This document shows, piece by piece, positions 2,683 through 63,374 of a DNA stretch of 64,000 nt. Numbering within the stretch: the first letter of the stretch is position 1; the number at the start of each line of letters is the position of its first letter. The DNA lies in IMG/VR virus record IMGVR_UViG_3300032116_000031, positions 62,001 to 126,000 of that record; one strand, given 5' to 3'. A program made the translations under genes and the position numbers. The notes below the pieces were generated by a model. It saw nothing but the letters and a program-made list of their open reading frames with translations, did not search any database and was not told the origin of the DNA. This stretch comes from a virus.

Positions 2683-4329
2683 TTGGCATATATTAACAGG
2701 AATTATCCGACATTATTAGATTTAAGGTTATCTGATAAAGATTATTATGACATACAAATGTCTGATTACAGTGTTATTTGTAATTGCAATGACATTGTAA
2801 ATCCTATTATCTGTATGAATTTTAATTCAACAGATGTAGTTTATAGTGATAATGAATGGGATATGGCTATATCTCCTTCTGGTGTTACGATAACTAATTT
2901 TGGTATAACTGGATATGATAATCGTTTTTCTGATAGTTTAGATTCTTCTTGGGGGTTGGACGGCGAAAAGAGATTTTTTGTGAAGAAGGTGGACGGCGAT
3001 AATTTTTGCTACGATATTCTTAGTGGATCAACTACTCAATTATGCGGGGGCTTTTATCAGGGATTCTATAAGTTAGAAGGTTATGATTACCAGACATTAC
3101 CCGACTACTATAAAGATGGATGGACCGCAGAATTTTATTTGGCTAAAAGCGGATGTACTTGCATTTCAGAGTTACCAACCCTAAACGAAACTTATCCTAA
3201 TAACGAAGGAATATTTTATTATTACGGTACAAGAGCTGAAAATAAGTTCTGCTCTGTAAAAGAGCATTTACTCTCCTATGAGGTTTCAAGTGGGGTAACT
3301 TTCCTAAGCTCAATTATAAAAGATACTTCCCATGTAACTCCTCCAAGTGATACAGCTTCTTTCTTATTTTATAATTGTCCTACATTAAATGAATTCTATT
3401 TGAATGCAACAGGTGTGACTTTTACTCTTCCTGATTGTTGCGATAATTTAAAATACAATGCCCTCGCTTTTAGGATTACAGATGAAGGCAAAATAGGTTA
3501 TAGATACTTAGCAACTTCTGGGACTTGTGTAGCTGGTAAATACGAAGAGGATTTAATGGTTTTTGAAAAATATAGTACCGAAAACATTTTTGTAGATGAC
3601 ACATTTAGGTTAGTTACCATTAAATTTAAAAACGATGAACACTTAACCTGCAAACCCGAAGAACAAACTTTTGGTGTACTTAGCATATACGTTGACGGTT
3701 ATTTGAAATTAAGGGAATATAATTTCCCTAATATTATACCTCAAGCCTTTGATGATTTAGCTTCTAAACAATTAGGTGTACCATACAACATAAGTATTGG
3801 CGGTGGAACCCAAGGCTTGTTAGAAATGCAGACCGATACTCCAACTGAATATGAAGTTTGTGATTATAAATTTTATTTAAAGAAAGATCAAAAATTCAAA
3901 GGAGCTAGGATAAACGGAGTCGATTATTTTACAGTTGTAGATTACGATATTACTATACCTGATGAAATAGTCTCATTCTTAACGCAGCACTTGGATAATA
4001 AATTCGCTGAAATAGAAACTAAAATAACCAGCAATTATGTTGAATTTATTTGTAGATTTGTAGTAGATGATTTCGAGAAAGTATTTTATTCTGTTGATGT
4101 AACTGAAGGTATAACAGACGCTTGTTGTAATCCTAATTTACCAGAATATTCACAAAGCAGTCTTTTGAAAATAAATTGTTTTAAATTCACCACTGATAAC
4201 AATATTTGTGGTATTTTAGAAGAAAATTTTGCAGGTAGCTTTATAGGTCAAATAAAAAGCTTTTGTTTATACGGTCAACCCTTAGATTATCAAGCTATTA
4301 AATGTAATTACAATATATATAACTCTTAA
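2683..4329 (+). CDS. LamG/concanavalin-like lectin-fold tail or fibre protein
   Basis: 548 residues from a TTG at 2683-2685; the next in-frame ATG is about 25 codons in and would cut a conserved-looking N-terminus. The pattern of beta strands, aromatic residues and glycine turns, including GIFYYYGTRAENKF, VLSIYVDGYLKLREY, YNISIGGGTQG and FIGQIKSFCLYGQPLDYQ, is typical of laminin-G/concanavalin-like domains, which bind sugars. The protein is unusually cysteine-rich for a phage protein. It lies 10 bases before a BppU-like gene, suggesting a receptor-binding or baseplate-tip pair. Two copies of the TGGACGGCG word lie 33 bases apart near codons 92-105. Confidence 0.7.
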   Translation: MAYINRNYPTLLDLRLSDKDYYDIQMSDYSVICNCNDIVNPIICMNFNSTDVVYSDNEWDMAISPSGVTITNFGITGYDNRFSDSLDSSWGLDGEKRFFVKKVDGDNFCYDILSGSTTQLCGGFYQGFYKLEGYDYQTLPDYYKDGWTAEFYLAKSGCTCISELPTLNETYPNNEGIFYYYGTRAENKFCSVKEHLLSYEVSSGVTFLSSIIKDTSHVTPPSDTASFLFYNCPTLNEFYLNATGVTFTLPDCCDNLKYNALAFRITDEGKIGYRYLATSGTCVAGKYEEDLMVFEKYSTENIFVDDTFRLVTIKFKNDEHLTCKPEEQTFGVLSIYVDGYLKLREYNFPNIIPQAFDDLASKQLGVPYNISIGGGTQGLLEMQTDTPTEYEVCDYKFYLKKDQKFKGARINGVDYFTVVDYDITIPDEIVSFLTQHLDNKFAEIETKITSNYVEFICRFVVDDFEKVFYSVDVTEGITDACCNPNLPEYSQSSLLKINCFKFTTDNNICGILEENFAGSFIGQIKSFCLYGQPLDYQAIKCNYNIYNS

Positions 4330-4339
4330 AGACCATAAT

Positions 4340-4693
4340 ATGAACTTTTATATAAAAGAAAATTCAACTTTACCTGTTCTAACAATGGAATTAATACAGA
4401 ATGGTATTAGTTCAAATAAAACTATGAATGAGCGGTTACAGAATGCAAACATTACTTTTTTTATGGAAGAAGTAGGTAGTTGTATTCCTGTAATTCAATG
4501 TGCGCCTTGCTGTATCTTGGTAGAACAAGAATGCAGCGATTGTCATGAAAAGGTTTACATTCAATATAAGTGGACCTTAGAGGATACAGCTAGAAAAGGT
4601 AAATATAAAGGGTGGTTTGAAATAACCTTTAATGACGATCAATCTGTTTTAATTGCACCCATTAGACAAACTCTTGATATAACAATTTTGTAA
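4340..4693 (+). CDS. BppU N-terminal-like baseplate/receptor-binding attachment protein
   Basis: 117 residues. It matches the N-terminal domain of siphophage upper baseplate proteins (BppU): a start of FYIKENSTLPVLTMELIQNG, a central strand NITFFMEEV, then YIQYKWTLEDTARKGKYKGWFEITF and a C-terminal VLIAPIRQTLDITI. In BppU this beta-sandwich anchors receptor-binding modules to the baseplate. The domain stands alone here, without a downstream fibre, so the adjacent LamG-like protein is the likely partner. Four of its cysteines cluster (IQCAPCC, ECSDC) and might bind a metal or form disulphides. Confidence 0.7.
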   Translation: MNFYIKENSTLPVLTMELIQNGISSNKTMNERLQNANITFFMEEVGSCIPVIQCAPCCILVEQECSDCHEKVYIQYKWTLEDTARKGKYKGWFEITFNDDQSVLIAPIRQTLDITIL

Positions 4694-4699
4694 AAATAT

Positions 4700-61468: not shown

Positions 61469-61469
61469 C

Positions 61470-61501
61470 AAAAAAGGGGACCAAATGGGTCCCCTTTTTT
61501 T
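61470..61501. terminator. Bidirectional intrinsic terminator
   Basis: AAAAAGGGGACC (61471-61482) pairs with GGTCCCCTTTTT (61488-61499), with A and T runs on either side. It separates the convergent gene ends at 61468 and 61500. Confidence 0.92.
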
Positions 61502-63374
61502 ATTCGTATGTTTTTTCAAATTTCCAATTGCCACAATCCCAAACCCTATCAAAACCCAAATAAATCATCATTTCTTTTTCCGTCATTGAGCTATCCAATT
61601 CAGGATATTCTTTAAGGATTTTATGTTTTTGGTACCGCATTCTATTGAATAGCTTTGCACCGTATTTTTTATTATAATAATGGTACACTGGAGGTTGCTG
61701 TTCAATTAGTTTGAAACCTAGTTTTGTATATAGGTTATTTTCTCCATCTGGTGTCCATCTTATATCTGCGAATGTTTTTATTTTGGACGGCGAAAAATCT
61801 CGCTCAAATTTTCTTAACATTTTTGATGCCAAACCCCGAATATGATAATTGTAGTTTGTGGCATATCTGTTCAAATCATATACACCTGCTTCACTTGTCC
61901 TTTTAAAAGTCATAACCCCCACCATTTCGCCGTCCAACACCGCACCATACCGTATAGGAGAAGTATCACCCCCCTGTATATGATATTTCTCTAAAAAATC
62001 AAAACTCTCATTGTGAGAAATCTCAATTATTTCACACGACCTAGCGTGCCCCTTCTTACCTAAATTTAAACCACAAGCATTTAATATCTTATTCCTTAAT
62101 AAATCTGGTTTCTCAAGATACTCATTCTCAAATATATGATACAATTTAATTCCATCTTCCTTGGCTTGATTTGTCTTATCTAAATGATAATATCTATCCT
62201 TACCACCATTATTCAAACTGCCATTAACCAAACCCTCACAATGATAAAGCAAACCGTTAGCCTCAAAACCAATGTTGCCATAAACAACATCCACCTCCTT
62301 ATTATTAGATAATTTTTTCTTGGAAATCTTCTCACCCGTAACCTCCGTTATCACTTCTCCTACCCATTGCTCGAACTTAGAAAAAGTACTTGCACAACTA
62401 GGACAACCAGACTTTAATGTCATATGTTCATTCTGCGACTTCTTGAAAACCCCATGTTTAGGACATATAATATCCATCTTCGTTTTACTATTTACATTCT
62501 CCGTACATAAAGAATAATCATATTTATCCTTATGTATTTTTCGAGATTTTTCGATAAATTCATTTAAACAAAATCTACTAGCCTCTAATGAACATTCAGG
62601 ACAACCACTACCTCCAACATGATTATCAAATCTTTGATGAAACCATCCGTGTTTATTGCATTTTATTTTAATTTTACTGCCAATATTAGTATATTCTGTA
62701 AAATCATATTCGTATTTATCAGAATGAACAGCTATAACTTTCAATAAAAGTTCCTCATCAGTAAAACGTTGGAGTTCAGCTCCTTCTATTTTAGCACATA
62801 CAGGGCATTTTTGCCCCTGTAAATGAGCTGAAACTACCTGTGAAAATTCACCATGTGTAGGGCATATTATCGTTATTTTATCAGTGTTAATTTTAAAAGA
62901 AGCTTTACTATAATCATAACCCCTATCTTTATGAATAATTTTACATTTCTCTAAAAATGCGGTTAATTTTTCTTCAGGAGTACCACCATACTTACAAACA
63001 GGACATTTATACCCCTTTTTATGAACAGCAGGGATAGTTTGAAATTCACCGTGTTTTCTACAAATAATAGTTACAGGTGTTTTGTCATTTATATATTCAA
63101 CCTTAGAATAATCGAATTCATCACCGTGAATAGTTTTTGCCCTTTCTATAAATTCATTGGTTTTAGATAAATCAACAACAGGGATTTTCTTACACTCCCT
63201 GCATTTAGCACCCCTCAAATGAACGCTTGCTATAACCTCAAAATCACCATGTTTTGAACAAGTAATAATAACAGGTTTTTTGGTGTTAATAAAATTAACT
63301 TTTTCGTAGGAATATTCATCCCCATGAACCTTTCGCGCCATTTCAATAAATTCTTCTTGCGTAGTTTTTTTCAT
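61500..63374 (-). CDS. Free-standing homing endonuclease (EDxHD/Vsr-like, with five zinc repeats)
   Basis: 624 residues from the ATG at 63372-63374 (MKKTTQEEF); an upstream TTG lies within the -7 promoter element. Residues about 5-320 hold five repeats of 'vHgd.YdYs...y.n....i.C..HG.F.....H..g.gCp.C', each with two cysteines plus His, resembling the DUF723 zinc-binding repeats of phage endonucleases. The nuclease part begins FEQWVGEVITEVTG and contains NKEVDVVYGNIGFEANGLLYH and YHLDKTNQAKEDGIKLYHIFENEY, a common phage homing-endonuclease core. The last 150 residues are GNAT-like (HIQGGD, LGFKLIEQQPPVYHYY). It lies directly downstream of the major capsid gene, a favoured homing place. Two TGGACGGCG words. 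Confidence 0.8.
   Translation of the reverse strand: MKKTTQEEFIEMARKVHGDEYSYEKVNFINTKKPVIITCSKHGDFEVIASVHLRGAKCRECKKIPVVDLSKTNEFIERAKTIHGDEFDYSKVEYINDKTPVTIICRKHGEFQTIPAVHKKGYKCPVCKYGGTPEEKLTAFLEKCKIIHKDRGYDYSKASFKINTDKITIICPTHGEFSQVVSAHLQGQKCPVCAKIEGAELQRFTDEELLLKVIAVHSDKYEYDFTEYTNIGSKIKIKCNKHGWFHQRFDNHVGGSGCPECSLEASRFCLNEFIEKSRKIHKDKYDYSLCTENVNSKTKMDIICPKHGVFKKSQNEHMTLKSGCPSCASTFSKFEQWVGEVITEVTGEKISKKKLSNNKEVDVVYGNIGFEANGLLYHCEGLVNGSLNNGGKDRYYHLDKTNQAKEDGIKLYHIFENEYLEKPDLLRNKILNACGLNLGKKGHARSCEIIEISHNESFDFLEKYHIQGGDTSPIRYGAVLDGEMVGVMTFKRTSEAGVYDLNRYATNYNYHIRGLASKMLRKFERDFSPSKIKTFADIRWTPDGENNLYTKLGFKLIEQQPPVYHYYNKKYGAKLFNRMRYQKHKILKEYPELDSSMTEKEMMIYLGFDRVWDCGNWKFEKTYE

Follow-up and report, generated by a model that had tools for sequence, protein, structure and literature searches.

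A dispersed nine-base DNA word in a T4-like phage clade and its possible kinship with DNA uptake sequences

The window analysed here is a stretch of 64,000 nucleotides of virus DNA, bases 62001-126000 of the 136,214-base IMG/VR record IMGVR_UViG_3300032116_000031 (hereafter G000), and it carries a nine-base word, TGGACGGCG, that is dispersed through its genes in both orientations. It is strongly supported that selection or some process acts on this word as DNA and that no single protein motif is its cause, as a reading made earlier from the sequence alone (the sequence-only reading) had proposed, because the word is read in several contexts and far exceeds its codon-shuffle nulls, relatives conserve it at synonymous sites and the nearest outgroup phage lacks it. 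In our best reading the word works like an uptake or recombination word. With a probability of roughly 0.36, we favour a DNA-identity word of the uptake-sequence type, which would be read by uptake or recombination machinery of the host and kept by DNA-level selection or drive.

Abundance, form and orientation of the word

The window contains 28 exact copies of TGGACGGCG, 14 on each strand, spanning positions 2957-61936. The recount thus agrees exactly with the sequence-only reading, and the same applies to the A that follows the word in 21 of the 28 copies and to the tally of reading frames, with Leu/Val-Asp-Gly in 14 copies, Ser/Pro-Pro-Ser in 7, Ala-Val-Gln/His in 5 and Gly-Arg-Arg in 2. 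The excess is indeed far above chance, since dinucleotide shuffles of the window gave a mean of 0.01 copies (largest count 1) and an order-2 Markov model expects 0.01 copies in the window and 0.04 in the whole record. Moreover, the genome-wide count that had been proposed as a check finds the word abundant beyond the window, with 67 copies in the whole record (39 and 28 by strand), while one-mismatch versions number only 17. Two of the earlier statements need a small correction when extended to the whole record. All copies in the window are read in genes, but 6 of the 67 in the whole record fall outside open reading frames (ORFs); likewise, the preceding base conforms to the consensus K (G or T), but one copy in the whole record has A.

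About 8 copies are encoded within Trp-Thr-Ala-Gln-Phe repeats of tail-fibre proteins in the first 12 kb of the record, outside the window, and were excluded from later statistics. They are what could be said for an ordinary cause (codon usage, repeats, a protein motif or a mobile element), which is refuted for the copies outside these repeats. Synonymous-codon shuffling yields 0.20 copies (at most 2 in 300 shuffles) against the 53 copies that coding sequence beyond the tail-fibre region contains, and order-3 and order-4 Markov models, trained with the words masked, expect 0.12 and 0.16 copies, so that neither the Markov nor the codon-usage null, both suggested earlier, reproduces the count. 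In addition, the copies outside the tail-fibre genes lie on both strands and are read in four coding contexts, and the flanks of separate copies are unrelated to each other. We therefore regard an ordinary origin as extremely improbable.

Alignment of the copies gives the extended site GnGKTGGACGGCGAAAT, in which nine bases are fixed, the 5' neighbour is G or T, the 3' positions are mostly A, A/T, A and T, and G-rich positions lie upstream. The site is thus asymmetric, with an invariant 9-bp core, a weaker A/T-rich 3' flank and a G-rich 5' flank, and the word would best be explained as an asymmetric recognition site of about 12-13 bp with TGGACGGCG as its core.

The check for strand bias that had been suggested found none, with 29 plus and 26 minus copies outside the tail-fibre region. 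Several known genome-wide over-represented words differ from it here: FtsK-orienting polar sequences (KOPS) are strongly strand-polarised, while MatS, Noc sites and HIP1 are palindromic. The phage word resembles KOPS, MatS, Noc/SlmA sites and HIP1 in being over-represented genome-wide, but it is neither polarised nor palindromic, and the lack of strand bias speaks against a KOPS-type polar signal for translocation.

Orientation also bears on a stoperator-type reading, in which a repressor would bind asymmetric sites scattered over the phage genome and halt transcription there. The stoperators of Cluster A mycobacteriophages are 13-14-bp sites (PMC9283540, PMC6550527) whose orientation follows transcription, and the word resembles them in length, asymmetry and dispersal. 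However, its copies are 29 sense and 24 antisense to transcription (p=0.58), near even in three relatives too, and lie within genes, whereas stoperators lie mostly between genes and belong to temperate phages. Pfam and PHROG scans of part of the proteome found no repressor, and the phage looks lytic. Such a role is very unlikely.

The spacing of copies on the same strand, compared with shuffled orientation labels, is more even in G000 (p=0.0015), weakly so in the related phage G017 (p=0.07) and not in G763 (p=0.41). This evenness per strand hints at a strand-specific reader, with incomplete replication across phages. Close direct pairs of words also exist, as in the first two rows of Table 1, and an inverted word pair forming a strong hairpin between genes occurs once in G000.

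Conservation and turnover among related elements

The genes identify the virus as a T4-like contractile-tailed phage: its structural and packaging proteins include a portal (gp20), a terminase, a prohead protease, a tail sheath and a baseplate wedge, and it also has a late-sigma-like factor, a UvsX-like recombinase, an SbcC/SbcD-like pair, DNA polymerase B and a primase/helicase-like protein of 1367 aa. An exonuclease-family protein and several helicases are encoded as well. The phage looks large and lytic. The cultured phages nearest to it by baseplate and terminase proteins, Flavobacterium phages of the genus Immutovirus and Microcystis phage Mel-JY01, reach only 25-29% identity, and its host is probably a member of Bacteroidota.

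The word is carried by G000, G001 (the same phage), G002, G003, G015 and G016, and by a second subclade of G005, G017 and G763, with about 70% DNA identity between the two. It occurs roughly every 1-2 kb in these genomes (0.4-0.9 per kb). The nearest outgroup phage found, G018 (49% identity in the baseplate protein), has no copy and no other dispersed word, and among 209 loci of at least 10 kb, this clade alone has a 9-mer dispersed on both strands with such strength and spread. In three single-word pattern scans of IMG/VR (two of them complete), the word-rich, AT-rich contigs among the matches listed were all clade members, except for one contig, L229.

The copies are strongly conserved. In G003 (78.6% identical), 27 of 30 aligned words are kept, compared with 14-16% of background 9-mers, and in G017 (69.6% identical) 14 of 18 are kept, compared with 5%. 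The earlier suggestion to look at synonymous sites in relatives proved informative: third positions with an unchanged amino acid are 94% identical within words versus 60.5% outside in G003, and 82% versus 48% in G017. The reverse comparison reveals turnover, as only 14 of the 35 aligned words of G017 are present in G000. Changed sites often differ at several bases at once (3-7 of 9). For instance, at one site (23550 of G005) in G005 and G017, which are 97.8% identical, TGGACGGCG stands against TGGGGTGCA with 4 of 9 bases differing, and just one other difference lies in the surrounding 149 bp (locally about 99% identical). The clade supplies close genome pairs with single words just gained or lost, in which the origin and spread of words can be tested.

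L229 is an 8.3-kb contig with 10 copies of the word (1.2 per kb), 9 of them outside called ORFs; they form four inverted clusters, which fold into strong intergenic hairpins. It carries DUF932 and DUF3846 proteins and has 35 matches to TAnnTTTG, about twice the phage density; this motif is a Bacteroidota-type promoter consensus. An intergenic element, in which inverted ATATGCTTTT arms flank TATATAAT, occurs three times in the phage and once in L229 (4799-4893), and is found nowhere else among 432 loci. Searches of Rfam and of plasmid and phage DNA with the hairpin or this element gave nothing informative, and the element has no Rfam match. The shared element could suggest that L229 belongs to a clade member as an unassembled piece, but the evidence argues otherwise: L229 has no detectable homologue in the word-bearing clade, its words are intergenic, and its composition correlation is 0.29 versus 0.59 within G017. 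We read L229 as a putative further element from the host lineage of the phage. Inverted word pairs were also present in four other IMG/VR contigs, which were rejected, with GC contents of 0.50-0.70 and no enrichment of the word.

Possible readers of the word

Three kinds of reader deserve attention. First, the word could be a Chi-like signal. A helicase-nuclease of host or phage, translocating along the DNA, would recognise it on one strand and then switch to recombination, protecting phage ends and feeding the phage's recombination-dependent replication. Like the Chi sites of RecBCD/AddAB, the word is asymmetric, dispersed, G-rich (and GC-rich) on one strand and located inside genes, and its same-strand evenness in G000 would suit such a reader, as would the close direct pairs and the UvsX-like, SbcC/SbcD-like and exonuclease-family proteins and helicases of the phage. 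However, known Chi sites are 5-8 bp, which the 9-bp core with about 4 further constrained bases exceeds; the word has no orientation bias, the evenness fails in G763, and the hairpin pairs of L229 are foreign to Chi. Furthermore, no RecBCD/AddAB-type enzyme is among the phage proteins scanned, and a host Chi would be expected to be enriched in the host genome and in the other phages of that host, whereas no host enrichment was found. We consider a Chi-like role doubtful.

Second, a phage-encoded protein for binding, priming, packaging or genome organisation could use the word, both having arisen in the clade. Consistent with this, the word is confined in IMG/VR to the clade plus L229, is absent from the outgroup and is common to two subclades that have diverged considerably in DNA, and the primase/helicase-like protein would be at hand. 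On the other hand, Pfam scans covering most of the larger proteins found neither a methyltransferase nor ParB or anything similar, and no candidate tied to the word, and L229 has the word without homology to the clade and mostly between genes. Such a reader seems rather improbable to us. A related proposal, which we hold to be unlikely, is an identity word that evolved in the clade and has a phage protein as its reader, whole words being gained or restored by recombination, that is, a self-recognition code of a lytic virus independent of its host.

Third, the properties of the word fit DNA uptake sequences, which were absent from the list of explanations in the sequence-only reading, better than Chi, stoperators or KOPS. 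We infer that a host uptake or recombination machine reads the word and that phage DNA passes that route. The (probably Bacteroidota) host would have a receptor that binds the word and imports DNA bearing it; once imported, the fragments would recombine with matching places, and whole words would thereby spread or be restored there. The uptake signal sequence (USS) of Pasteurellaceae has a fixed core with a softer flank, much like the phage word. Together with the DNA uptake sequence (DUS) of Neisseriaceae, it shares with the phage word an asymmetric core of about 9-12 bp with a soft flank, a frequency of about one per 1-2 kb, both orientations and a location inside genes, as well as strong conservation, multi-base gains, inverted pairs and carriage by phages of the host (PMC2397512, PMC1939737, PMC6776037). 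Pasteurellaceae prophages also accumulate uptake words (PMC6776037). The phage word differs in having another sequence and probably another phylum, and in its large and apparently lytic carrier, where USS is scarce; no transformable host, receptor or host genome with the word was found.

Several results weigh against the uptake-type reading. Among about 940 Bacteroidota genomes, each has at most 4 copies of the longer forms KTGGACGGCGAAA or KTGGACGGCGAAAW, with no enrichment, and the hairpin form is absent from 335 further ones. The host-genome count proposed earlier has thus been made for candidate Bacteroidota without finding the word enriched, so that a word of the whole phylum or of a large family is unlikely, while a narrow host lineage stays compatible. 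Genomes with 3-4 matches were rejected as hosts, because their matches were due to chance in GC-rich DNA or as many as those of the reversed-word control, and in the last outlier the 9-base word and its reversed control both count 73. A host-wide word should mark other phages, but the IMG/VR scans list no further word-rich phage besides L229. Haemophilus phages of more than 150 kb, likely lytic, are poor in uptake words (PMC6776037). Neisserial uptake words sit in slightly more permissive regions (PMC2397512), whereas the protein sequence adjoining the phage words is no more variable than elsewhere. Inverted pairs of uptake words at gene ends act as terminators, but the L229 hairpins have no T-run after the stem, and the evenness on each strand in one phage is unpredicted by a direction-blind uptake word. 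Our literature search for the word itself returned unrelated sequences only, and no paper that we found demonstrates an uptake sequence for Bacteroidota; a self-preference is reported for Riemerella columbina (PMC7965970). We do not file the word in a family, because no host with the word was found, it is confined to one clade, large lytic Haemophilus phages are reported to lack USS, and the rivals are serious.

Dispersed recognition words known so far comprise those of two competent bacterial families, Chi sites and stoperators. If the uptake-type reading is true, the word would be the first of its type in Bacteroidota, extending into a lytic virus; if the word is instead phage-owned, it would be a genome code belonging to the phage.

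Positions of the copies and accompanying observations

Table 1. Copies of the word and of the intergenic element in the window, with reading in the gene where given.
Feature	Position	Strand	Gene	Reading	Remarks
Word TGGACGGCG	2957..2965	+		Leu-Asp-Gly	Close direct pair with 2990, 33 bp apart; G003 and G015 retain it
Word	2990..2998	+		Val-Asp-Gly	
Word	4980..4988	-	DNA polymerase B	Ala-Val-His (antisense)	Changed in G005/G017
Word	8396..8404	+	DNA polymerase B	Leu-Asp-Gly	
Word	8978..8986	-		Leu-Asp-Gly	
Word	12757..12765	+	Ribonucleotide reductase large-chain part with intein-like domain		Missing in G002, G003, G005
Word	15096..15104	-	Ribonucleotide reductase large chain	Leu-Asp-Gly	
Word	18404..18412	-	DnaB-like helicase	Gly-Arg-Arg	
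Word	18836..18844	+		Ser-Pro-Ser (antisense)	
Word	27366..27374	+		Ser-Pro-Ser (antisense)	
Word	32676..32684	+		Ala-Val-Gln (antisense)	
Word	34782..34790	-		Val-Asp-Gly	
Word	37768..37776	-	Tail sheath	Val-Asp-Gly	Changed in G017/G763
Word	41174..41182	-		Leu-Asp-Gly	
Word	41738..41746	+		Ser-Pro-Ser (antisense)	
Word	42107..42115	-		Val-Asp-Gly	
Word	42482..42490	+		Ser-Pro-Ser (antisense)	
Word	46604..46612	+	Primase/helicase-like	Val-Asp-Gly	
Word	47331..47339	-	UvrD-type helicase	Pro-Pro-Ser (antisense)	
Word	47776..47784	-	UvrD-type helicase	Ala-Val-Gln (antisense)	Changed in G017/G763
Word	51280..51288	+		Val-Asp-Gly	
Word	53281..53289	+	SNF2-type helicase	Ser-Pro-Ser (antisense)	
Word	53745..53753	-	SNF2-type helicase	Gly-Arg-Arg	
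Word	57865..57873	-	Caspase-domain gene	Leu-Asp-Gly	Changed in G763
Word	58488..58496	-		Val-Asp-Gly	
Word	59977..59985	+	PolyA-polymerase-like	Ala-Val-Gln (antisense)	
Word	61784..61792	+	HNH endonuclease	Ser-Pro-Ser (antisense)	
Word	61928..61936	-	HNH endonuclease	Leu-Asp-Gly	
Intergenic element, inverted ATATGCTTTT arms around TATATAAT	2060..2215				Type recurs in window and L229
Intergenic element, second copy	28255..28420				Best match to L229
Intergenic element, third copy	28440..28600				Same element type

Some of the genes that hold copies have features of their own. The ribonucleotide reductase large chain (12639-16026) is interrupted: it is encoded by two ORFs, with an intein-like (HINT) part and an additional ORF of 344 aa in between, while in G003 it is a single uninterrupted ORF. 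The tail sheath protein (37100-40351) is unusually long, with 1083 aa, and a phage protein with a caspase (Peptidase_C14) domain is encoded at 57488-58300. A polyA-polymerase/CCA-adding-like protein (59430-60593) occurs in the same phage as an RlaP RNA-repair protein of the polymerase-beta family (14520-15449 of G000). Moreover, a TnpB/OrfB-IS605 protein with a Cas12f1-like domain lies at 53985-55265, and a near copy of its start is found at the end of record G765.

Record G765 (20110-29457) matches the right end of G000 and then carries tail-fibre genes in reverse orientation, related to those at the left end of G000 (1-11938). The tail-fibre cassette may possibly be duplicated or invertible, and the G000 record is probably incomplete.

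G004 was rejected as a word-negative close relative, as it shares a closely related ribonucleotide reductase but little else and is only distantly related. At 16090-17088, the proteins of the ribonucleotide reductase genes share 77-87% identity with their G004 counterparts despite the distance between the phages, which suggests that these genes may have been transferred between phages. The top words of G004 come from collagen-like protein repeats: in contrast to the dispersed word, the collagen-like Gly-x-x repeats at 1-4320 of L105 (G004) yield a same-strand DNA word with 51-84 copies.

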